Below are positions 3,311 to 18,708 of a stretch of 24,242 bases of DNA, piece by piece. The position numbers and the translations under genes were made by a program. This stretch comes from a virus, in the IMG/VR virus record IMGVR_UViG_3300033149_005745, positions 1 to 24,242 of that record; one strand, 5' to 3'. The first letter of the stretch is position 1. Each line of letters begins with the position of its first letter. The notes beneath the pieces were generated by a model. It had not been told where the DNA came from. It was given only the letters and a program-made list of their open reading frames with translations, and did not search any database.

Positions 3311-5144
3311 TGAAACAATTGAGAGTAGGCACGGCCCAGTTGATGCTCGGGTTTACCATTTTGCGGCGGGTACACCACAAGGCCCGATGTTGGGGATGGT
3401 TTCTGCCGCCGAGGGCATGCTCGATCGCGTGGTAGGAGGCTCAGCGCAGATAACAGATGAGACCGCCAAGCTGTTTGCGGCATATGCCAAGAGTAAGAAG
3501 GTGGCTACCCCACCTGTTGATCTAAATACGTATGTGTCGTTGGCTGATGAAGCAACTGTGCATGCGTGTATAGAGGCCAAGGTGGTTAGTATCTGTCAGC
3601 AGGGTTATAAGATACGCCCTCGTTGGGAACTGGCTGTGTTGGACCAGTCGCTGGCGCCCCTATCTGACATGTATGAGGCGCCTGTTGCCACGGATGAGCA
3701 ACTTAAGAAAGTTAGGCCTCAGCTGGAGAAGGCCGAGGCGTTCTTGTCATTGGGTATGCCTGACGAACCTTTCCCTGACCTGTTGGCTGGGATGTGGCGT
3801 GATTTGGAAACGGTGGGCCAAGGCTTTATTGAGTTTTCTCGCGATAAGCAGGGTGTTATTGACGGTATGTCTCCGTGCAAGGCGGTCACAATACGGTTCC
3901 TTGCTGATGGCTCTGGGTACATACAGATTCGGAATGGCAAGCGGAAGTTCTTTGCTAAATACACAGCGGATAAGGAGGAACGATATCGTTCAGTCAAGAT
4001 TGAAGCTGTGAAGCAGCAGTTGGGTGCCGGGGGTAGCAACTACGAGGTGATCGATCTTCCTGTTATGTGGGGGACGTTAGATAGGGGCATCCCTATTGGT
4101 TTGTTTAATAAGGCGATCACTGAGCCTGGTGATGTGGCTGCTGAGAAGGTTACCGAGCTACTTTGTATGAAGAAGGGCACGTCTAAGGATACGCTTTATG
4201 GTGAACCCGATACGATGTCAGCCGCCTATGATTTATTCGGGGCTAAATACGCAGCTGCGTTTAACGCTTCCTACTTTGAAAACTCAACAGTGCCACGTAT
4301 GGCGATTATTGTGCGAGGAGGGGAGCTGACATCAAAGGTGACTGATGCTATTCAAAGGTGGCTTAACGAACAGCAGCAGATTGATGCGATGAATAATGTG
4401 TTGATAATTGAAGTGCCTGGTATGGAAGTGGAGATTGAAAAGTGGGACCTGTCGGTTTCGCAGCTTAACGAATCTGGGTTTAATGAGTTTCGTGATCTTT
4501 GTGATCATCGTATTATGCGAGTGCATCGTGTGCCTCCCAGCGTTATTGCTTCGATAGAGGGACTAAACAGGGCGGTTAGCCAGGAGGCCAACTGGCAGTT
4601 TCTGGCGCAGGTCGTTCGCCCAGAGCAGCGGCGTATCGAATCTAGGTTCAACTATATTCTGCGGGAGGATTTGGGTCTGAAGGATGTAATGCTTGACCTT
4701 GCCCAGCCAGAGCTTATTTCGGAAAGGGAGCGGGCCGAGATATTCTCCATCCTTATGGGGAGGGGCGTGGTGAGCATTAACGAGGTGCGCAGGTACTATG
4801 GCAGGCCTCCAGTGGCCGGCGGTGACGAGCCATTTCTTAATTCTTTGGGCGTAGGGATTTTGCCTGTGCGTTTGGTTGAGGAAGTAGTGCGAGCTAATCT
4901 CGGTGTGGGGGCTGAAAACGGTAATGGTGAGGCTAAGCCACTTACTAGCGATATGAAGACGCCGCCCAATTCTGCCCCAATTTTTCAATTGCCTAATGCG
5001 TCCAAGGCGCTGTTTAATGCGATGGCGGTAGGGCAGCTTACTTCAGAGCAGCAGATGGATACGGCGATGATACTGGAGGATTTGGGTATTCCACAGATGG
5101 TGAGGTTTGTGCCGGAGGCCACCAAGGAAGATGATGATGTATAG
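3267..5144 (+). CDS. Portal protein
   Basis: This protein would form the dodecameric ring at one capsid vertex through which DNA enters and to which the tail attaches. It fits the HK97/SPP1-like portal family. YGEPDTMSAAYDLFGAKYAA is followed by FENSTVPRMAIIV (about residues 337-349) and then RVHRVPPSVI at 418-427 and LNRAVSQEANWQFL, with the long C-terminal helix region after it. These blocks are the conserved core of such portals. I prefer ATG 3267 (MKKQQPDVQ, 625 residues), a 44-base overlap with the terminase gene. The frame stays open to an earlier ATG at 3174, but those 31 extra residues look like out-of-frame terminase coding sequence. Neither start has a strong ribosome binding site, so coupling to terminase translation is likely. 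The acidic C-terminus ends with tandem stops (TAG TGA). Confidence 0.93.
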   Translation: MKKQQPDVQPLDVRDETIESRHGPVDARVYHFAAGTPQGPMLGMVSAAEGMLDRVVGGSAQITDETAKLFAAYAKSKKVATPPVDLNTYVSLADEATVHACIEAKVVSICQQGYKIRPRWELAVLDQSLAPLSDMYEAPVATDEQLKKVRPQLEKAEAFLSLGMPDEPFPDLLAGMWRDLETVGQGFIEFSRDKQGVIDGMSPCKAVTIRFLADGSGYIQIRNGKRKFFAKYTADKEERYRSVKIEAVKQQLGAGGSNYEVIDLPVMWGTLDRGIPIGLFNKAITEPGDVAAEKVTELLCMKKGTSKDTLYGEPDTMSAAYDLFGAKYAAAFNASYFENSTVPRMAIIVRGGELTSKVTDAIQRWLNEQQQIDAMNNVLIIEVPGMEVEIEKWDLSVSQLNESGFNEFRDLCDHRIMRVHRVPPSVIASIEGLNRAVSQEANWQFLAQVVRPEQRRIESRFNYILREDLGLKDVMLDLAQPELISERERAEIFSILMGRGVVSINEVRRYYGRPPVAGGDEPFLNSLGVGILPVRLVEEVVRANLGVGAENGNGEAKPLTSDMKTPPNSAPIFQLPNASKALFNAMAVGQLTSEQQMDTAMILEDLGIPQMVRFVPEATKEDDDV

Positions 5145-5180
5145 TGACTGTTAGATTATGCCAGCCCCGCAAGTTTTGAG

Positions 5181-5211
5181 GCACTCCTGCTCCTTGCCCG
5201 AGCAGGAGTGC
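5181..5211 (+). terminator. Perfect 12-bp hairpin after the portal gene
   Basis: GCACTCCTGCTC (5181-5192) and GAGCAGGAGTGC (5200-5211) are perfect inverted copies around a seven-base loop CTTGCCC. It lies 36 bases after the portal stop and before the next promoter. A U-tract is nearly absent: TCACTTTGTG follows on this strand, and the other strand has none. It may be an imperfect intrinsic terminator, or a structure that protects or processes the 3' end of the terminase-portal message. Confidence 0.65.
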
Positions 5212-5333
5212 TCACTTTGTGTATCATGCTTGAATATTGTCCTCCTCGTAGTCTCGCACCGTTCGCCAGGTCCCACGTACTTGGAGCTACCCCAGTGGTT
5301 TCACCATATCTTTGGATTTTTTAGACAAAAAAA

Positions 5334-5351
5334 TTTTGGTTTGTCCCAAAA
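5334..5351. promoter_or_regulatory. Inverted repeat upstream of the promoter, possible operator or UP element
   Basis: TTTTGG (5334-5339) and CCAAAA (5346-5351) are perfect inverted copies separated by six bases, ending four bases before the -35 box at 5356. A second, overlapping inverted pair, GACAAA (5324-5329) and TTTGTC (5340-5345), is also present. The whole 5317-5352 block is rich in A and T tracts, as expected of an UP element. A regulator site is inferred from position and symmetry only. Confidence 0.45.
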
Positions 5352-5355
5352 AGCC

Positions 5356-5383
5356 TTGACATTGATTTGAACTTCCTTATAAT
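5356..5383 (+). promoter_or_regulatory. Near-consensus sigma70 promoter for the head/tail operon
   Basis: Both boxes are perfect: TTGACA at 5356-5361 and TATAAT at 5378-5383, with a 16-base spacer. Transcription should start near 5390, giving an untranslated leader of about 70 bases. This is the strongest promoter visible in the window and is well placed to drive protease/scaffold, capsid and the genes beyond. Confidence 0.85.
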
Positions 5384-5461
5384 GGAAACTGAGTTAAACC
5401 CAAATATGAGCTTGTTCAGAGTAATAACTGATGGAATCTAGCCAGTTGGGGGCTGGTTGGC

Positions 5462-7648
5462 GTGCCCTATGAGAGCATATCCCAGCTTCCTGCCAGTTTT
5501 AAGAATTATAGCACCGAGCAGAAGAAGTATGCCCTTCGTGTGCTTAATGCCTTGCTGCGCGATTCCAGTTTGACCGAATCTCAAGCGATAGCCACTACCC
5601 ACGAGATGGTTCAAAGGAAGTTTAAGATTTCTAAACCAGGGGGGAAGGCTGCAATGATTGGTGACTTTTCATTCTTTGTTTCTGTCAACAAAGCGGAGTC
5701 GTCCGCCGATGGCGAGCTTCGTTTTGTTGGTCAGGCCTCGTCTGCTCTTGTTGATAAAGAGGGCCACCGTGTTACTGAAAAGGCAATTCAGGCTATGCGC
5801 AATTCCGGCCCAATTCCCCTTGTTGTAGCCGGAAGTCATGTGGAGGGTGAAGTCAGTGTAGCATCGCGAATTGGGTGGTGTTGGCCGGACGTTTCGGTTG
5901 ATGACCCCTCGGTACTTCGCATAAATGGCCGGCTGAAAAAGAGCCATCCGTTTGTGCCAGCTATTTATGAGGACATGACAGATGAGGCCCTACGGGACAC
6001 GATGAAGTTGTCTATTTCCGGTCGGCTGCCGCCGGGAGCGGTGCGGCACAGTCTTGACTCTAAGACTCATCGTGCCATTATGGAGATTGATGATATTGAG
6101 CTTCAGCACGTTTTGCTCTGTTCGGCAAACTCTGCGATAAATCAGGATACTTGGGTGGCACCGGTTGGTGATGGTAAGGCCCAGTTGGGTTGGACTGATA
6201 TGATTTTTAAGGCGGCGGACACTTTGGGCCGCCAGCCGGGAGGCACAGGCGAGGGTCCTGGCGGGGTTTGTGTCTGTCCTGAGTGTGGTTATGAGACTAA
6301 GCACGATACCGGCGAGCCTTGTTATGAGATGAAATGTCCAAAGTGTGGGTCCAAGCTGACTAGGCCGACTACTGGGAAGGCAAAACGTTCTGAGGCGGAA
6401 GAAGTGTCAAGCGCGACTTATGTTTGTGTTGAGTGTGGCTTTGAGGAGGCTATGGCTGAATATCGGCCTGATGGGTATTTTTGTAAGATTTGTGGAGGGA
6501 AGATGGCACCAAAGGAGGTTGACGCTGTGCCAACGACTAGGAATACAGCAAAGGCCGAGTTTGACGAAATTGCTGCCTATTATGATTTGTTGGGGAAGAC
6601 CATTTCTGAGATCACTCTCGAGGAATTGGAGAAGGCTAAGTGGACTACTGCGTATGTAAATGATCTTCCGGATTCTGCCTTCCTATATGTTGAAAATACG
6701 GGCAAGAAGGATGAAGATGGGAAGACTGTGCCACGAAGCGCAAGGCATTTACCATTTAGAGATAAGCAGGGCAACTATGATTGTCGTCATTTGCATGCAG
6801 CAGCAGCCCGTGCCAACCAGATTAAGGGTGTAACAACGACTATTAGTGCTGAGAAGAAACAGGCTTTGAAAGAGAAAGCACAACGGCTTTATAATAAACA
6901 CTGCAGTACAGCGAAAGCTGCTGATTCTAATACAGAAGGAGGCGAAAGTCTAATGGGTGAGTCCTTAGAAAATGCCAGCAGGCGGACTATTGGAGAGGTC
7001 CTAATGGCGGGGATTACACAGCTCCTCGGCACTGCCTCCCACACCAAGCTTGGGGATGATGCTCAAGCCGAGAAGGCTGGTTCTGATTCCAACGAGGCTG
7101 TTGAGGCAGTCGCCAAGGATGCCGAGACTCATTCAAGTGCTGAAGCTACCGGGGAAAAGACCGACATAGCTAAGCTTTTGGATGACCTTATTAACAAGGT
7201 AAGCGATTTAACCAATAAGGTTGATGCGCTTGAGTCTGCTAGCCAAGTGGACAAGACGAATGAGCCCGCCGATGATGGAGGCGAGGAGGAGACGGTTGAG
7301 AAGACCGAGGCCGATAAAGCCGAGGATACTCAAGTGGAACCGACTGCTCCTGAAGGCGATAATGTAGACAAGGTGGATGACGTCCCTACTGATGCTGTTC
7401 AAACTATCAATGACAACTTTGCTGAACTCTTTAAGCAGCTGTCTGCGATACAGGCGGCCCAAAGCGAGCAGGAAGCTCGGATTGAGGCGTTGTCTGGCAG
7501 TGTCGAGGTTATCGCCAAAGCCGATGGAATGTCGGCACAAGTACCACAGGGCGACGAGCCCGGCAATGGCGGGGGGGCCACTGAAGATGTGGCTCATATA
7601 TTAGCTCGTCAGGCTGAAAGCTGTTTCGGAAGGAGTGTGAGTACCTAA
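5462..7648 (+). CDS. Prohead protease-scaffold polyprotein with ChaB-like N-terminus and zinc ribbons
   Basis: This is a 728-residue multidomain head-maturation protein starting at GTG 5462, with GGGGG at 5448-5452 upstream. Residues 1-55 resemble ChaB (MPYESISQLPASF and a helical AIATTHEMVQRKF end). Residues 65-235 fit an S78-like prohead protease, with likely catalytic His126 (GSH) and Ser184 (KLSISGR) and a family-like end around CSANSAINQDTW. Two zinc ribbons follow: Cys272/275 with Cys292/295, and Cys322/325 with Cys341/344. Residues 394-490 (LPDSAFLYVE, KTVPRSARHLPF) match a module often found in phage protease or structural polyproteins, probably DUF6582. From 498 on the chain is acidic and coiled-coil-forming, like a scaffold. 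In known phages the protease removes the scaffold and the capsid delta domain; zinc ribbons are not a usual part. A nested scaffold start lies at 6953. Confidence 0.85.
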   Translation: MPYESISQLPASFKNYSTEQKKYALRVLNALLRDSSLTESQAIATTHEMVQRKFKISKPGGKAAMIGDFSFFVSVNKAESSADGELRFVGQASSALVDKEGHRVTEKAIQAMRNSGPIPLVVAGSHVEGEVSVASRIGWCWPDVSVDDPSVLRINGRLKKSHPFVPAIYEDMTDEALRDTMKLSISGRLPPGAVRHSLDSKTHRAIMEIDDIELQHVLLCSANSAINQDTWVAPVGDGKAQLGWTDMIFKAADTLGRQPGGTGEGPGGVCVCPECGYETKHDTGEPCYEMKCPKCGSKLTRPTTGKAKRSEAEEVSSATYVCVECGFEEAMAEYRPDGYFCKICGGKMAPKEVDAVPTTRNTAKAEFDEIAAYYDLLGKTISEITLEELEKAKWTTAYVNDLPDSAFLYVENTGKKDEDGKTVPRSARHLPFRDKQGNYDCRHLHAAAARANQIKGVTTTISAEKKQALKEKAQRLYNKHCSTAKAADSNTEGGESLMGESLENASRRTIGEVLMAGITQLLGTASHTKLGDDAQAEKAGSDSNEAVEAVAKDAETHSSAEATGEKTDIAKLLDDLINKVSDLTNKVDALESASQVDKTNEPADDGGEEETVEKTEADKAEDTQVEPTAPEGDNVDKVDDVPTDAVQTINDNFAELFKQLSAIQAAQSEQEARIEALSGSVEVIAKADGMSAQVPQGDEPGNGGGATEDVAHILARQAESCFGRSVST
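6937..6942 (+). promoter_or_regulatory. Strong internal ribosome binding site for a nested scaffold
   Basis: AGGAGG at 6937-6942 (within GAAGGAGGCGA) lies ten bases before an in-frame ATG at 6953 inside the protease-scaffold gene. It is among the best matches to the anti-Shine-Dalgarno sequence in the window, and it falls at the boundary between the conserved module and the acidic scaffold region. This makes a chance match less likely. Confidence 0.65.
6953..7648 (+). CDS. Nested in-frame scaffold protein (internal start)
   Basis: The ATG at 6953 is codon 498 of the protease gene and begins MGESLENASRRTIGEVLMAG, giving a 231-residue product with the same stop. The product has a short helical start, an acidic low-complexity middle (EEETVEKTEADKAEDTQVE) and two stretches suited to coiled coils (DIAKLLDDLINKVSDLTNKV; NDNFAELFKQLSAIQAAQ). 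These are typical of phage scaffolds. Making scaffold from an internal start in the protease gene is known from lambda (C and Nu3) and gives many free scaffold copies for each protease copy. That this happens here is inferred from the ribosome binding site and the domain boundary. Confidence 0.65.
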   Translation: MGESLENASRRTIGEVLMAGITQLLGTASHTKLGDDAQAEKAGSDSNEAVEAVAKDAETHSSAEATGEKTDIAKLLDDLINKVSDLTNKVDALESASQVDKTNEPADDGGEEETVEKTEADKAEDTQVEPTAPEGDNVDKVDDVPTDAVQTINDNFAELFKQLSAIQAAQSEQEARIEALSGSVEVIAKADGMSAQVPQGDEPGNGGGATEDVAHILARQAESCFGRSVST

Positions 7649-8745: not shown

Positions 8746-9225
8746 ATGGCTGATGAGCAAAAGCGGGCTGGTGGCTGGCTGTACATTCCGGACACGGCCT
8801 ATCACCCTGAGTCGTTTGTGGTGAAGTCTGTGGTTGAGACTGTTGAGGACCCGATTACCAAGCAGAACGTACCAATTTCTTATGTATTTAAGAAAATGGT
8901 AGCTCAGTTTGTCCGTACTGATGAGGACTATGAAGCGTTCCTTGCTATTATGGTTACTCGTCCGGGCCAGCGGGGTGTTGAGGGGTTGACGACGGAGCCA
9001 ATGTTTAAGACCGGCCGTCCTGAGGAGGATGGTCGACCTTTGGACCTAACCGATCCAGCAGTGTTGGCTCAGTTGAAGGAATTGATAGATACTCACCAAG
9101 CGAAGCAGTCCGATGAACTGGAGCCTGATATTGGAGTGGCTCACTCACTTTCAGCTGAAACTGCGTCTTCTCGTGGGGTGACTACGAAGGTTGTTGGGGC
9201 CCACGGCGTAGTTGATGGCGCTTGA
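8746..9225 (+). CDS. Unknown small head protein
   Basis: I do not recognise this 159-residue protein. It begins MADEQKRAGGWLYIPDTAYHPESF, has a compact mixed central part (VPISYVFKKMVAQFVRTDED YEAF) and ends in a hydrophilic, Ser/Thr-rich, probably flexible tail. GAGGTG at 8733-8738 is the ribosome binding site. The second ATG (8746) gives better spacing than the first (8743). A gene in this place, right after the capsid, is often a decoration, minor head or head-fibre protein, but nothing in the sequence proves that. A ten-codon frame (ATG 8721) overlaps the start and is probably meaningless. Confidence 0.75.
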   Translation: MADEQKRAGGWLYIPDTAYHPESFVVKSVVETVEDPITKQNVPISYVFKKMVAQFVRTDEDYEAFLAIMVTRPGQRGVEGLTTEPMFKTGRPEEDGRPLDLTDPAVLAQLKELIDTHQAKQSDELEPDIGVAHSLSAETASSRGVTTKVVGAHGVVDGA

Positions 9226-9241
9226 TATAGGGGGTGGGTCC

Positions 9242-10465
9242 ATGGGTATTCGGCTCACCCCATTCGGTTCTCGTTCGTATCATGTGGCGGGCGGGCCTGT
9301 ATCCCGTACTTACCACTTTGTGGCGGGCGAGTGGACTGAGGTAACCAATCCCAGCGACTTAGCCTATTTGCTGTCCAACGAAAATTGTATATTGCAAGAG
9401 GAGAAGCCGCTCGGCAACAAGGCCATAATTTGCCGCTGCGACGGGGATAAGACCAGGGCCCGCTTCGATGACGCTGCTGCAGGTGTTGAGTATTACAGGG
9501 AGTACGAAGCGGGCCGTATTTATAGTGTACCTTTACATGAGTACAAGGTGCTTAATAAGCGCCAAGATTTTCAAGAGGTTGATTTGGTAACGGCTTTATC
9601 GGATCGTCCTAGGATGCGGGTGTTGATAGTTCGGCCTAGGGGTTTGGGCGACTTGTTGCTTTCGCTGCCTGCAGTTGCAGCTATTCATAAGCGCTTTCCA
9701 AATGCCTCAATAGTATATTCGTGTGATGCTCATTATCGCGTATTGTTCTTTGATAACCCAGCAGTGACCAGGGCGGTAGAGCATTTCGAGGCATACGATT
9801 ATGCCCCTTATGACTACATCGCTGATTGGACTTATGGGGTTGAGAATCATCCTAGGCAGGCATCTGAGGCCCGCCCAGATTTGTTTGCTGAGATGGCGGG
9901 AATTACTAACCTTACTGACTACAGTATGTTGTTAAAGCCTATGCCTTCTCATGTTGAAAGGGTGGCAGGTTTGCTTCCAGACTCCCATCCTTTGGTGGCA
10001 GTGCATGTACGTGGTGCTAACTTTAGGCGGGTGCCTTCGCAGGAAAAGCTGGTTGGGATAGTGAGGAAAATGGTGTTGGCTGGAATGACACCAGTGTGTC
10101 TACATCACGTCCGTGAGACCATTTGGGACATTGATGGGGTAGTGAATTTGACCGGTCGAACAGACGTAGGTGACCTTGTTGCCGTAGTTGATGCGTGTGA
10201 TGCCGCGTTGGTTGGTGATTCTGGTGTGACGCACGTGGCAAACGCACTGAGCAAGCCGACATTGGCTCTTTATGGCCACGTTGATTACAAGCTGCGTATA
10301 AAGGGACAGCCTAATTGTACGGTCATCCAAGGCAACTCCTATGTTGGGTGTCCACCCTGTAATGACCATCAGACCCACCGGTGTGACCCTCCTCCTCGCT
10401 GTTTGGATATGATACCTGATGAGGTTATTATAGAGAGGCTAAAGGAAGTAGTAAAATGCCGATAA
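9242..10465 (+). CDS. Structural-like N-terminal domain fused to family 9 glycosyltransferase
   Basis: Residues 125-407 form a glycosyltransferase of the GT9 (heptosyltransferase-like, GT-B) type. The signs are MRVLIVRPRGLGDLLLSLPA at the start, an HVRGANFRR segment in the second half, GDSGVTHVANALSKPTLALY from residue 325 with Asp326/His331, and the C-x2-C...C...C cluster (CPPC, HRC, RCL) near the end that many GT9 proteins have. Such enzymes move a sugar from a nucleotide carrier to an acceptor. Residues 1-124 are not part of that fold; RTYHFVAGEWTEVTNPSDLA YLL looks like a short phage head or fibre domain. ATG 9242 is preferred because GGGGG at 9230-9234 sits seven bases before it; starts at 9215 or 9212 (TTG) would add 9 or 10 residues. 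The gene lies between capsid and connector genes and overlaps the next gene by ten bases. The acceptor is unknown: a capsid protein or host glycan is possible. Confidence 0.85.
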   Translation: MGIRLTPFGSRSYHVAGGPVSRTYHFVAGEWTEVTNPSDLAYLLSNENCILQEEKPLGNKAIICRCDGDKTRARFDDAAAGVEYYREYEAGRIYSVPLHEYKVLNKRQDFQEVDLVTALSDRPRMRVLIVRPRGLGDLLLSLPAVAAIHKRFPNASIVYSCDAHYRVLFFDNPAVTRAVEHFEAYDYAPYDYIADWTYGVENHPRQASEARPDLFAEMAGITNLTDYSMLLKPMPSHVERVAGLLPDSHPLVAVHVRGANFRRVPSQEKLVGIVRKMVLAGMTPVCLHHVRETIWDIDGVVNLTGRTDVGDLVAVVDACDAALVGDSGVTHVANALSKPTLALYGHVDYKLRIKGQPNCTVIQGNSYVGCPPCNDHQTHRCDPPPRCLDMIPDEVIIERLKEVVKCR

Positions 10466-14039: not shown

Positions 14040-14582
14040 ATGGGAAATTTGACTGATGAACGAAAAGCACAAATCCTTGACAAGTTGGCACTGAGGGCCG
14101 ACCTTGGTGAGAGCGACCGTATACCGTTGACTGGTCCGGCCGGAGAGGACATCGGGGATGAGTATTGGGTAGTGCTCCGGGAGGCTAATGCCGAGCAGAT
14201 TAGTCGCCTCGAGTCTCTTTTTATGAAGGAGACTGTGCACCGCGAGATTAAGGATGATGGCACATTAGATGAGCTTATCGAGCGGCGTTATGACACATTT
14301 GGCCTTCTTAGAGAGGTTGTTGTTATGCGGCTGATAAAGGACGCCCGGTTGCCACGGCGCACTAGTAGTGGCATTGAGGCGGTTGCTTGGCCTCGGCAAA
14401 GTTCGGAGCAGAGGAAGATGCTCAATGAGGTGCCTCCAGCACTTCTAGGTGTTCTTTTCCGCGCCATTAACGATTTTTACTTTGGTGAGGAGACCATAGC
14501 GGTGGAGAGCGAATCCGGCGAGTTGGAAGCGGTTCTTGACCAGCAGGCGGTGGTTGGTGAGTTAAAAAACTTGCCAGGCTAG
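14040..14582 (+). CDS. Tail assembly chaperone (G-like), frameshift donor
   Basis: This 180-residue, mostly helical, acidic protein sits between tail tube and tape measure, the place of lambda G. It starts MGNLTDERKAQILDKLALRA and contains a helix-rich centre (LLREVVVMRLIKDARLP) and NDFYFGEETIAVE near the end. Chaperones of this class coat the tape measure during tail assembly. ATG 14040 is preferred because GGAGGAG (14027-14033) sits six bases before it; ATG 14034 would add two residues but touches the ribosome binding site. The reading frame ends at TAG 14580-14582, 10 bases after a slippery heptamer that would send a fraction of ribosomes into the next gene. Confidence 0.75.
   Translation: MGNLTDERKAQILDKLALRADLGESDRIPLTGPAGEDIGDEYWVVLREANAEQISRLESLFMKETVHREIKDDGTLDELIERRYDTFGLLREVVVMRLIKDARLPRRTSSGIEAVAWPRQSSEQRKMLNEVPPALLGVLFRAINDFYFGEETIAVESESGELEAVLDQQAVVGELKNLPG
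14564..14570 (+). other. Programmed -1 ribosomal frameshift site A_AAA_AAC
   Basis: In the G-like frame the codons are TTA AAA AAC, so the heptamer is A_AAA_AAC, a canonical X_XXY_YYZ slippery sequence. The next gene is in the -1 frame. That frame has a TGA at 14558-14560, so the two frames overlap only from 14561 to 14582, and the slippery site falls exactly there. After slipping, reading continues CTT GCC AGG CTA GTG without a stop. Only a weak downstream stem (GGAG 14587-14590 with CTCC 14600-14603) is visible as a possible stimulator. Confidence 0.88.
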
Positions 14583-14998
14583 TGGGGGAGGCCGCTGTAC
14601 TCCAAGGTGATGTTTCGGTTTTGGAGATAGTTGTTCAGCAGCGGTTAGGTAAGATACTTGAGCAGAAAGAGCCCGCTAGCCACATTAGCGAACTGGAAGC
14701 CAAGAAGGACCCTCGGTTTCAGACTGAAGATGGTCGGTTGGATAAGGTTAAGTACCGTGAATATCTAGCCAGCCTTAGTCAACTGGTACGAGAAGCAGAC
14801 CCTGAGATTGATTCGACTTGGATCGAACGAAAGATGGCCCGCTTCATAACCCATCGTGTCGAGGAAGCTGAAATTTTCTTTGAGCTCCATCTGCTACCGG
14901 GAAATGTTCCTTGGAACAGGATAGCCCATTGGCGGATTGCTATTTGGCAATCTTATGCCCATGGTAAAGCCAAGGCAATGAGGGAAAAGTACCGTTAG
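14582..14998 (+). CDS. Tail assembly chaperone extension (T-like), expressed by frameshift
   Basis: The open frame really begins at 14561 and, by slipping at 14564-14570, joins the G-like protein to a roughly 142-residue extension, about 319 residues in all. The extension is helical and charged (VLEIVVQQRLGKILEQKEPA, YREYLASLSQLVREADPEID) and ends in a Trp-rich helix (WRIAIWQSYAHGKAKAM). A GTG at 14582 overlaps the G-like stop codon (TAGTG), but no ribosome binding site precedes it, so independent initiation is less likely than fusion. In lambda the fusion protein bridges tape measure and tube subunits. Both forms here should be made in a fixed ratio. Confidence 0.8.
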   Translation: MGEAAVLQGDVSVLEIVVQQRLGKILEQKEPASHISELEAKKDPRFQTEDGRLDKVKYREYLASLSQLVREADPEIDSTWIERKMARFITHRVEEAEIFFELHLLPGNVPWNRIAHWRIAIWQSYAHGKAKAMREKYR

Positions 14999-15058
14999 TT
15001 GGTGGAGTTTTGTGTTTATGGGCTGTTGCGAAACTGGTTCGCCTTTAGGATGATAATG

Positions 15059-15658
15059 ATGTTTAGACTAGTTTGGGATGACGCAAGTCAATTATGGTTT
15101 GACCAGCTGTCTACTCAGTTTCCGGCACGGCTGGCCAAGGCCACCCAAATAGCCATGCGTACAGCAGCGGACGCCGCGTTGCGGGCTGCGAAGGGCGATG
15201 CACCCGTATTTGAGGGGTGGCTGCAGAAGGATTTGCGCATGTTTCCTCTGAATATTATCAATGCGGGGCGCTTTAGTATTCGCATAGGGGAGAGTGGGGC
15301 ATTGCTTATTAGTGGAGAGCCTGTGCAGAAATACGATCCATTTTCGTATGCATGGGCAAAACATTCAAAAGCTGCGCCACACCGAGTTTGGCTATATGGC
15401 GTTGGGGGGAAGGAAACGTGGGCTAGAAAGAAGCTGCGCCGATGGTTCAGGGAGTATGTTTCCAGCGACCTCCCCACGACTGAGGCCGGATATCGCGAGC
15501 AGCGACCCAGCTATCCTCCATATATTGACGTGGACCCAGGTAAGACTGCTCAACCATTTTTTCGCGAACGGATCGAGCCTAACGGCGGTATGGTTTATGA
15601 CAGGTTTAGGCGCGAGATGAAGACTTTGGCAAAGATGTACTGGCGCAAACCTTGGTGA
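15059..15658 (+). CDS. Unknown tail-region protein, weakly gp10-like
   Basis: This 199-residue basic protein starts at ATG 15059, with AGGA at 15047-15050; ATG 15056 and 15050 and a TTG at 14999 are possible earlier starts without better support. An N-terminal alanine-rich helix (LAKATQIAMRTAADAALRAA) is followed by GDAPVFEGWLQKDL and a beta strand (RFSIRIGES), which is reminiscent of the HK97 gp10 layout in which a helix leads to 'aPv.tG.L..si'. The C-terminus is rich in aromatic and basic residues (KKLRRWFREY, PSYPPYIDVDP). A gp10-like protein normally lies before the tail tube, so its place before the tape measure would be unusual. The family is uncertain. Confidence 0.6.
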   Translation: MFRLVWDDASQLWFDQLSTQFPARLAKATQIAMRTAADAALRAAKGDAPVFEGWLQKDLRMFPLNIINAGRFSIRIGESGALLISGEPVQKYDPFSYAWAKHSKAAPHRVWLYGVGGKETWARKKLRRWFREYVSSDLPTTEAGYREQRPSYPPYIDVDPGKTAQPFFRERIEPNGGMVYDRFRREMKTLAKMYWRKPW

Positions 15659-15663
15659 GTTAA

Positions 15664-18600
15664 ATGGCAGACGCTGATGTAACCCTTGGGCTAAAAGTAA
15701 CTGCTGATATTTCCGAAGCAACCCGCATGCTGGAAGGGTTGCGTGGCAAGGCTGGTAGCATTGGTGGTGCCGGCGGTATTGGCGGTACTCGTGATGTTAG
15801 TGGCGTTGGTGCTACTAGCGCTGCTCGCCGTGGCATTTCTGAGATGGCAGTGGAGGTGACAAGGCTAAACGAGAGTAGGAGAAATCTTCAAGCTAGAAAT
15901 CTTACTGTTATACAGAGCGAGAAGTCCCTTGCTACTGCCTATGAGCGTTTGCGGAAGCGAAGCTCTGAGGTTACCCAAGCCGAGCAACTGTATCAAGATG
16001 CGCTCAAAATACGGGCAGGTTTGACTAAGGAGAGTACACAGGCTGAAAGGAATGCCGCCGCTGAGACGGTAAGAAGGGCCAAAGCCGAGAAGGAGCTTGC
16101 CGTTGCAAGGGCGCAATACACGCGGGCAGAGGTACGGCAAGGGGAGAAGGTTGTGGCTCAGCGTAAAAAGGAATTGGAAAGAAAGAAGGAAATGGAGCAA
16201 AAAGAAGGCCAAATGATTGCCCGCGCCAAACAGGAAATGATGCGCGACTTGGCTCGGCGTGAGGCGATAGAGCAAAAGAAAGGCCAAATGATCGCCCGTG
16301 CCAAACAGGAAATGGAACGTGACTTTGCACGGAGGCGGGCATTGCGGGCAAGGGAACTGCGGGAAGAGCAGCGAATGTTGGCGCTACATATACGTGCATT
16401 GAAGGAGTATGCAAAGGCACGAATGTCGATGGGCGTACAAGGCGTTGCCCGTAACATTCTGGGAGGTATTGGTAGAGTTTATGGCAAAATACAGGGGATG
16501 TTTTCCTTTGGTCTGAGGACCTACTGGGTATTTTTGTCTATTATGTATGCTATTCGCAATATCATCCGTCCGTTTACCCGGATGGTTGAGACGATGGTGG
16601 AGGGCTTTCGCAAGATAATTGGGTTGGCTGTGCAATTTGTGAAGTCGGTAGTGAATGCGGCTAGTGAGATGGAGATTCTGGAGAAGCGAATGGGGGCGCT
16701 CTTCGGTATGGGCATGGGGGCAGAAGGCAGGAAGATGATGGGCGAAGATGCGCTTCAATATGCCATGAACATGTCAGTCGGGATAAAGGCGGTATGGACT
16801 GATATTGCTGAGGCTATGATCAAGGGCTGGGCTCTTGGTTCGGAGATTATACCAAAAGCATTTCCGGAAAAGGGGATCAAGGGCGTTATACCGGCCGCGT
16901 TGGATTTAGCTGCAGTGTTTGGGAGGACAGCCGAGGAAGCTGCGGAAGCTATAATGAAGGGGGCCACAGGATGGTTTAGGTCATTGAGGGCATCGTTCGG
17001 CATTCTTCCGAGTCAAGTTCTAAGATATGGAGGAGTGCCTGGTCGGAGACCGGGAACATTGGCTGGGGCGGAGGCTGGGCCTGAAGCGCACGCTAGGAAT
17101 CTTTTGGCTATTATTAGTTTAATCGAAGATCGTTATGGTGGCATGGCCCGGGCGATGGCTTATACATTTGCAGCGGCGTTGGCTGATGTGCAGGATATGT
17201 GGGCGCACTTTGCATACGCGCTGCAGCGGCGTGGGTTTCTCAAGCCATTGGCTGATGCGATTTTTAAGGTTCGTGATAGGTTTTTCGAATTGACTGAGGA
17301 AGGATATAAATTAAAGAAGGAAGGCATTTTGGATTATATTGCTTGGCAATTCACTCAATGGTCGGAGCGGTTGCGTCCAGTGTGGAACTGGCTTGCCGAT
17401 AGAGTTGAGCCAATCCTTATTGTGGTTTCCGGTTGGTTGGATAAGATCGGCATAGCGTTTGACGAGTGGTACGCTAGGTCTGGTGGGATAGAGGGCATAA
17501 TGACGAAGGTGATGGGGGTCGTGGTTGATTGGGCCCCACACGTAATTGCATTCTTCCGCACATATTTACAGCTTGTGTTGTCGTTAGGGGACGCATTGTT
17601 ATGGGTATTTGAACAGGCGCTTTACATGGCGATGGCTGCTGCCGCACTGTTGGGCAAACCAAAGGCGGTCAAGGCTATTGGAGCTGCGTACACCGCTGTG
17701 ATTGCTACTAAGAAAGAAGCGCTTCCTTGGTTGATGGAGAAAGAAGAGGCAATAGGGGGAGGGATACAGGAAAGAGTAACTATATCAGCCGCCGCCCGCC
17801 AGGATGTGTTGGCGCGTGGTGGCACAGCCGAGCAGTCGTTACAGGCAGCCCAAGCAGTGCTACTTAATTCTGAGGCGTTTGAAGCGTGGAAGGAATATTT
17901 GGGCCCACAAGCGTTGGGTCAGGAAGTGGGCCCGGTACCTATGGCAGGTCGCAGTGAGGCAGTGCGAGCCGCCCAAGCTAGAGTTAAGGAGTTTGAAAGG
18001 ATAGCAAGTAAGGGGGCAGCAGCCGAAGGGGTAGCCGGCGGGGAGGGCGAGCAGAAGGGCATCTTCCGTAAATTGTGGGAGGTGCTTGGCAGGCTGGTTG
18101 ATGTTTTGGGGAAGTTAAACACAACCCTTAAATGGCTTGGTTACGCCTTGGTTATACTTCAGGGTATTTCGATGATGGGAAAGGTTGGTAGGGGACTAAA
18201 GACAATTAAAGATATAGGACTGTGGCTGTTTGGAAGGGCTGCTGGAGGCTCGTATGGTTTTATTCCTCCAGGAACGGGAGCCGCTGCTACTGGATGGGGT
18301 GGTAGAATAGCTGGATGGGGTGGTAGAATAGCTGGATGGGGTGGTAGAATAGCTGGATGGGGAGCCGGAGCTGTTGGAGGGCTTGGGCTGAGTGGATTGG
18401 GTACCATGAGTGCTGGTGCAGCCATTAGCGCGGCGCCCCTAGCTGTGACTGGTTTGGCACTTGCTGCTGGTGCTGGTGGTTATGGGATTGGTTATGCAGC
18501 GCGGCGGTACATTCCTGGGTTTGAGTCTTGGCTAGAAGAACTAGGCGATGCCTTGGGTAGCTGGTATAGTCAGATGGTCTACGGAATGCCACCGCCTCCT

Positions 18601-18708
18601 CGACTTGAAATTAAGGTTGTTCCCACCGACGGTCTCAACGCTCAAATCCGTCAAATGGATAGCCCCGGGTATTATTCTAGGTATGGTCGTCAGGCAGGTA
18701 GAAGCTAA
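15664..18708 (+). CDS. Tape measure protein
   Basis: This is the longest gene of the window (1014 residues), in the tape measure position directly after the chaperones. The order is: a Gly-rich start, about 200 residues of highly charged coiled coil (residues 60-255, including two 25-residue repeats), hydrophobic helices (TYWVFLSIMYAIRNIIRPF; HVIAFFRTYLQLVLSLGDAL), a WGGRIAG tandem repeat near 877-900, and a glycine/alanine-rich membrane-like segment (APLAVTGLALAAGAGGYGIG). Tape measures set tail length and are ejected with DNA. At about 0.15 nm per residue this one would give a tail of roughly 150 nm. GGTGAG upstream is the ribosome binding site. No lysozyme or peptidase domain is evident. 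The stop shares a base with the next start (TAATG). Confidence 0.92.
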   Translation: MADADVTLGLKVTADISEATRMLEGLRGKAGSIGGAGGIGGTRDVSGVGATSAARRGISEMAVEVTRLNESRRNLQARNLTVIQSEKSLATAYERLRKRSSEVTQAEQLYQDALKIRAGLTKESTQAERNAAAETVRRAKAEKELAVARAQYTRAEVRQGEKVVAQRKKELERKKEMEQKEGQMIARAKQEMMRDLARREAIEQKKGQMIARAKQEMERDFARRRALRARELREEQRMLALHIRALKEYAKARMSMGVQGVARNILGGIGRVYGKIQGMFSFGLRTYWVFLSIMYAIRNIIRPFTRMVETMVEGFRKIIGLAVQFVKSVVNAASEMEILEKRMGALFGMGMGAEGRKMMGEDALQYAMNMSVGIKAVWTDIAEAMIKGWALGSEIIPKAFPEKGIKGVIPAALDLAAVFGRTAEEAAEAIMKGATGWFRSLRASFGILPSQVLRYGGVPGRRPGTLAGAEAGPEAHARNLLAIISLIEDRYGGMARAMAYTFAAALADVQDMWAHFAYALQRRGFLKPLADAIFKVRDRFFELTEEGYKLKKEGILDYIAWQFTQWSERLRPVWNWLADRVEPILIVVSGWLDKIGIAFDEWYARSGGIEGIMTKVMGVVVDWAPHVIAFFRTYLQLVLSLGDALLWVFEQALYMAMAAAALLGKPKAVKAIGAAYTAVIATKKEALPWLMEKEEAIGGGIQERVTISAAARQDVLARGGTAEQSLQAAQAVLLNSEAFEAWKEYLGPQALGQEVGPVPMAGRSEAVRAAQARVKEFERIASKGAAAEGVAGGEGEQKGIFRKLWEVLGRLVDVLGKLNTTLKWLGYALVILQGISMMGKVGRGLKTIKDIGLWLFGRAAGGSYGFIPPGTGAAATGWGGRIAGWGGRIAGWGGRIAGWGAGAVGGLGLSGLGTMSAGAAISAAPLAVTGLALAAGAGGYGIGYAARRYIPGFESWLEELGDALGSWYSQMVYGMPPPPRLEIKVVPTDGLNAQIRQMDSPGYYSRYGRQAGRS
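16195..16344 (+). repeat. Two 75-bp tandem copies coding for a 25-residue coiled-coil repeat
   Basis: Copies at 16195-16269 and 16270-16344 encode EQK(E/K)GQMIARAKQEM followed by (M/E)RD(L/F)ARR(E/R)A(I/L). Twenty of 25 residues are identical. The DNA copies differ at several synonymous and non-synonymous sites, so the duplication is not very recent. A 25-residue period lengthens the helix without stopping it. Confidence 0.85.
18290..18362 (+). repeat. Perfect 21-bp tandem repeat, 3.4 copies, encoding WGGRIAG
   Basis: The unit GGATGGGGTGGTAGAATAGC plus T begins at 18292, 18313 and 18334, with a partial fourth copy (GGATGGGG) at 18355-18362. The copies are identical at every base, including silent positions. 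They encode GWGGRIA three times within the tape measure, next to a membrane-like segment. The perfect identity suggests a recent or actively changing slippage array. Confidence 0.95.

Follow-up and report, generated by a model that had tools for sequence, protein, structure and literature searches.

The DNA analyzed here, a virus record of 24,242 bases that we refer to as the window, carries a perfect 21-bp tandem array within a large open reading frame, which raises the question of whether the array is a recent expansion inside a tape measure protein (TMP) and, if so, what a gained unit would do to the phage tail. The first-pass annotation had placed such an array at 18290-18362 in a tape measure gene, next to a membrane-like segment, had read the identity of the units as a sign of recent expansion, and had put the effect on the tail at ~1 nm per unit.

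Table 1. Features of the window bearing on the array and its gene (feature; position; strand; basis)
Likely tail assembly chaperone, short form, 182 aa	14034..14582	+	Position and frameshift site
Slippery heptamer A_AAA_AAC, in the right phase	14564..14570	+	Same heptamer and phase in L002 (3599-3605)
Chaperone frameshift extension (lambda T-like place)	14571..14998	+	-1 frame open in both genomes
ORF between chaperone and TMP, start codon uncertain	15047..15658	+	Same place as the gp10-like gene of Kakheti25
TMP ORF, 1014 aa	15664..18708	+	Homology to L002 ORF, and context
Two 25-residue (75-bp) units, residues 180-229; six in L002	16201..16350	+	Sequence comparison
Predicted helix, residues 794-844, confident only mid-helix	18043..18195	+	AlphaFold2, single sequence
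21-bp array, 3.5 identical copies; GWGGRIA x3 + GWG, residues 877-900	18290..18362	+	TRF
Hydrophobic segment, residues 914-939	18403..18480	+	Kyte-Doolittle, window 19, peak 1.71
Next ORF, 925 aa	18708..21485	+	56% identical to post-TMP ORF of L002

The tape measure gene and its one relative

From its ORFs and PHROG matches the window is part of a head-tail operon, in which a terminase (phrog_38, E=3e-58), a portal (phrog_12, E=1.3e-33) and a head-type structural gene (phrog_1623, E=6.3e-37) are followed by more ORFs and then by the 1014-aa ORF that holds the array in frame. The product of this ORF (P0001) itself matched nothing in Pfam or PHROGs and had no tblastn match at 1e-5 among 50,697 phage records, and a PDB sequence search gave only a chance-level match to a designed binder (E=0.6). 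Through the gene after the TMP we found a relative, contig IMGVR_UViG_3300031227_000475 (locus L002), which has the large head and tail ORFs in the same order as the window, the terminases being 58% and the capsids 68% identical. At the place of the TMP the relative has a 1119-aa ORF that is 43% identical over window residues 174-751 and 36% identical over the whole alignment, and its product (P0002) matches phrog_1535, "tail length tape measure protein", with an E-value of 2.1e-8.

The slippery heptamer upstream sits near the end of its gene in both the window and the relative, in a lambda G/GT-like manner, and a -1 frameshift there, which we predict for both genomes, would give a fusion of 322 aa in the window and 330 aa in the relative with no internal stop. 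Frameshifted tail chaperones ahead of the tape measure are the lambda-type layout, and the array-bearing ORF is a large ORF downstream of such a pair, with one more ORF in between. Neither PHROG (at 0.001) nor Pfam gave a match for the chaperone ORF, and the ORF in between had none in Pfam. The heptamer itself is reported for phiCbK and its relatives except Colossus (PMC3556154). Because the relative's homolog matches phrog_1535, the frameshift layout is in place and the gene order is that annotated for Pseudomonas phage Kakheti25 (JQ307387; frameshifted chaperone, small gp10-like gene, tape measure), we regard the assignment of 15664..18708 to a TMP as firm, in agreement with the first-pass annotation, while noting that it comes through the relative's profile match and context. 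Read-through of the stop at 14996-14998 was considered and set aside: in our reading of the sequence, GGTGGAG and an ATG come directly after the stop at the second ORF of the relative, an ordinary arrangement.

Other ORFs of the operon also drew our attention. In a 417-aa ORF among the head-tail genes (9212-10465), residues 310-360 match glycosyltransferase family 9 (PF01075, E=1.3e-11), and L006 has a 418-aa ORF at the matching place. Between portal and capsid lies a 728-aa ORF (5462-7648) with zinc-ribbon matches below cut-off, and the relative's ORF at that place has 552 aa. Residues 161-298 of the relative's TMP gave a Pfam match above cut-off to the Cthe_2159 carbohydrate-binding family (PF14262, E=4.6e-8), which is very likely false and caused by the 25-aa repeats described below.

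Scans of the viral_contigs and genome_contigs collections returned no near relative, and records very near the window may be absent from these collections. In viral_contigs, searches with the TMP or the next ORF found one contig only, a degenerate DNA pattern for two 21-bp units had 0 matches, and the terminase had no relatives; genome_contigs held no relatives of the TMP or the next ORF. Neither of these two matched anything in the phages collection at 1e-5, and the relative's TMP found two weak records there at 0.01. Terminase searches gave 33 phage records and capsid searches 127, all below 60% identity, the capsid also matching one plasmid record and one more contig (L007, 8271 bases) that is too short to reach the TMP. 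The contig scans yielded one usable relative.

Origin of the 21-bp array

TRF returned the array at the coordinates already proposed, as 73 bases of period 21 with 100% matches, and its score of 146 was the top of the 10 rows in the window. The codons run GGA TGG GGT GGT AGA ATA GCT three times and then GGA TGG GGA, the final base lying outside the array, and the silent sites are identical among the units, as had been claimed. At lag 21 the TMP gene has an exact self-match of 52 nt; the longest such match was 32 nt (mean 9.4) in 5000 synonymous-codon shuffles within the gene that kept the protein, and at most 12 nt in 2000 codon-order shuffles. Given the codon frequencies of 15 window genes, a heptapeptide of this sequence encoded twice independently would agree at all silent sites with a probability of ~3.5e-4. 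From the shuffles and this probability it follows that the identity is in the DNA and not in the protein alone, and the identity at silent sites fits the recent DNA duplication suggested at first pass. Recent DNA copying is the simple reading and probably the correct one, although gene conversion between units would look alike.

Of the two relatives compared, the window has the array and L002 does not: the relative's TMP aligns without it, and the alignment is poor in this region. The relative has a 21-bp repeat of its own, encoding GFFTRIG (7209-7256; 2.3 copies, 85%), ~70-80 residues earlier in the alignment, and we rejected homology between the two repeats, which lie at different alignment places. 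Their units look alike (G-aromatic-x-x-R-I), and this motif, which we devised after seeing the units, occurs in both TMPs and in 0 of 25 control TMPs; however, 73 heptads of the relative (6.6%) score equally with the window unit under a grouped-residue rule, and the likeness is not significant. A foreign origin of the array region was also considered, third-position G+C being low (0.32) across the 41 codons that surround it, and dropped, since 54 of 974 windows along the gene, some overlapping the array, were equally low.

We set the array against 25 control TMP genes from the phages collection, namely those of three well-known phages, two weak homologs of the relative's TMP, and 20 picked for variety from 42 listed rows; the set was not random, and all 25 were counted. 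With TRF scores of at least 50, the controls had nine rows in 79.4 kb, seven with period 21 (in 6 of the 25 genes) and the others with periods 15 and 18, compared with 0.25 period-21 rows per set in 40 codon-order shuffles. Flanking DNA of the controls (137.7 kb) had five rows, three of them with period 21 at two loci, so that period 21 is only modestly more frequent in TMP genes than in their flanks (one-sided p 0.033; we settled on this comparison once the rows were known). At a score of 40, period 12 (six rows) was nearly as frequent as period 21 (seven rows) in the control TMP genes, and a preference for seven residues therefore hangs on the threshold. Pooled protein self-identity over the 25 controls peaked at lags 7, 11, 14 and 18, as expected of helices. 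On this chosen set a 21-bp or 7-residue period is neither strange nor rare in TMP genes.

The perfection of the window array is uncommon: the top control row (qsb1) had 1.9 copies at 94% and a score of 71, less than half that of the array. Given how uncommon such perfection is among the controls, the array may have a special cause. For exact self-matches at lags 6-200, the window array was exceeded only by Klebsiella phage K21lambda1 (69 nt at lag 127), and the next control was Seuss (27 nt at lag 132). The K21lambda1 self-match lies near the end of a tape-measure-like ORF (L011 3839-6302), at a lag that is not a multiple of 3, and adjoins an overlapping small ORF; it may reflect a duplication that shifts the frame, or else an error of assembly.

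The array ends 114 residues short of the TMP C-terminus, in a region rich in glycine (30% in residues 860-960 vs 12% over the whole TMP), and the membrane-like segment noted beside it corresponds to a hydrophobic segment 13 residues downstream. An AlphaFold2 single-sequence model of residues 779-1014 had a mean pLDDT of 54 and was too poor for a fold search. In this model the helix listed in Table 1 spans model residues 16-66, with block pLDDT values of 91, 92, 83 and 70 over model residues 21-60. The array was predicted as helix with low confidence (block pLDDT 35-47), which leaves the helix phase at the array insecure.

Longer units and the length of the tail

The window TMP has in-frame tandem units of two helix-compatible lengths: at 3.6 residues per turn, 7 residues correspond to 1.94 turns and 25 residues to 6.94. 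Between the two relatives it is the 25-residue unit, not the 21-bp array, whose copy number differs. These longer units lie in a coil-like part of the TMP, and the six of the relative occupy 5116-5565. At the DNA level, the window pair is 72% alike over the 75-bp units and 82% in a 71-nt register, the six of the relative are 65-85% alike among themselves, and units of different phages are 45-53% alike; at the protein level the corresponding values are 72%, 44-80% and 36-48%, with groups that overlap. These comparisons suggest that the units were likely copied separately within each lineage. The four extra units in the relative amount to 100 residues of a net TMP length difference of 105, the stretch before the units being 20 residues shorter than in the window and the stretch after them 25 longer. 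For a 219-residue piece of the relative's TMP with all six units, the prediction was a single continuous helix (mean pLDDT 86.7).

A 25-residue unit would measure 3.75 nm at 0.15 nm per residue, near one tube ring, the rise of which is given as ~40 Å in R4C (PMC10276861) and 43.2 Å, with 45 discs, in JBD30 (PMC11445458); for JBD30, whose TMP has 1158 aa, this comes to 25.7 residues per disc. It is tempting to propose that the ruler of this lineage is built of 25-residue helical units, one repeat to about one ring, such that gain or loss of a unit would change the tail by about one ring. We consider this unlikely; equating one unit with one ring is guesswork based on two lengths, 3.75 and 4.0-4.3 nm, which are 6-13% apart. 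The 25-residue units, which differ in number between two relatives and come near a tube ring in length, provide an easy way to test whether rulers lengthen by whole rings.

For the 21-bp array, the early estimate of ~1 nm per unit was right as arithmetic (7 x 0.15 nm, or at most 1.05 nm), but a single unit spans only about a quarter of a 4.0-4.3 nm ring. The 0.15 nm rule is reported to have been used for phiCbK with good agreement (PMC3556154), and computed from the genes it gives tails of ~152 nm for the window phage and ~168 nm for the phage of the relative. Measured tails of phiCbK-like phages are listed with errors of 4-12 nm (PMC3556154 Table 1), so that electron microscopy could hardly resolve single units.

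Competing readings and known tape measure proteins

The best explanation, to which we assign a probability of roughly 0.7 as a whole, is a recent in-frame tandem expansion in the TMP of what would be a long-tailed phage, tolerated and of small effect. A 21-bp unit encoding seven residues in the glycine-rich C-terminal part of the TMP would have expanded recently and in frame, by replication slippage or misaligned recombination. Since seven residues make two helix turns and the frame is kept, such an expansion would be tolerated: an added unit would lengthen the chain without changing the helix phase, and the virion would probably be little affected, each unit accounting for 1 nm at most, provided that the array is helical and inside the tube. 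That slippage was the cause, that the event was recent, that an unchanged helix phase made it tolerable and that its effect is small are all what we infer.

A stronger role, in which a variable number of units in the array would tune tail length by small increments, seems to us quite improbable. Tail length does scale with TMP length (PMC5099701, PMC3556154), and in TP901-1 deletion of the hydrophobic segments Tm2-3 is reported also to shorten the tail, from 118 to 107.6 nm (PMC5099701), from which non-repeat parts of the TMP count for length and an effect may appear after several units. TP901-1 is further reported to need the C-terminal 60 residues of its TMP (PMC5099701), and the window array lies outside the equivalent stretch. 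However, the array has been seen in one copy-number state only, with no variation in unit number, a unit falls well short of a ring, and most of the length difference between the relatives is made by the 25-residue units. We think it unlikely, too, that the array is a membrane or channel element, whose Gly-rich heptads would form a glycine zipper with the hydrophobic segment that follows when the TMP enters the host membrane. By sequence reading each unit and its neighbor form GxxxG, the hydrophobic segment follows, and for Burkholderia/Paraburkholderia TMPs glycine zippers are described that overlap transmembrane segments of the C-terminal region (PMC10240207), a role in DNA entry being posed there as a question. 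Residues 840-970, however, have nine GxxxG against a shuffle mean of 9.5, and we rejected a zipper in excess of composition for the region of the array; the array is missing from the relative, whose C-terminal hydrophobic segment falls at another place in the alignment. Over the whole TMP, GxxxG counts are above shuffles (26 vs 14.7 in the window, 24 vs 14.4 in the relative), which local Gly-rich stretches could explain. An assembly artefact would be conceivable for a metagenome contig such as this record of the IMG/VR kind, but we hold it to be very improbable, as the 73 bases of the array are fewer than those of an ordinary short read and the frame runs on both sides.

Three systems already described come closest to the window. 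Kakheti25, which shares the gene order, differs in that TRF returned no row at score 50 for its TMP. The TMP of TP901-1 (Mahony et al. 2016, PMC5099701) is alike in having repeat and hydrophobic regions, with deletions in both reported to shorten the tail, and unlike in that its repeats are given as 11 and 18 residues long; its gene has no perfect DNA array, the longest exact self-match being 12 nt at lags 6-200. Gain and loss of tandem units in TMP genes, the feature that the window shares with the TMPs of Belcaid et al. 2011 (PMC3271669), is described there for 33-nt units and for a 44-aa block of which two Bacillus prophages have four copies and a further one has three, where the authors lean to loss. 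The units in that account have diverged by mutation, whereas the window has a perfect 7-aa array in a Gly-rich part alongside a diverged 25-aa unit. The array is real and ordinary, another case of an already known kind of TMP unit duplication, and it adds one clean example of a DNA duplication, probably recent, in a tape measure gene.
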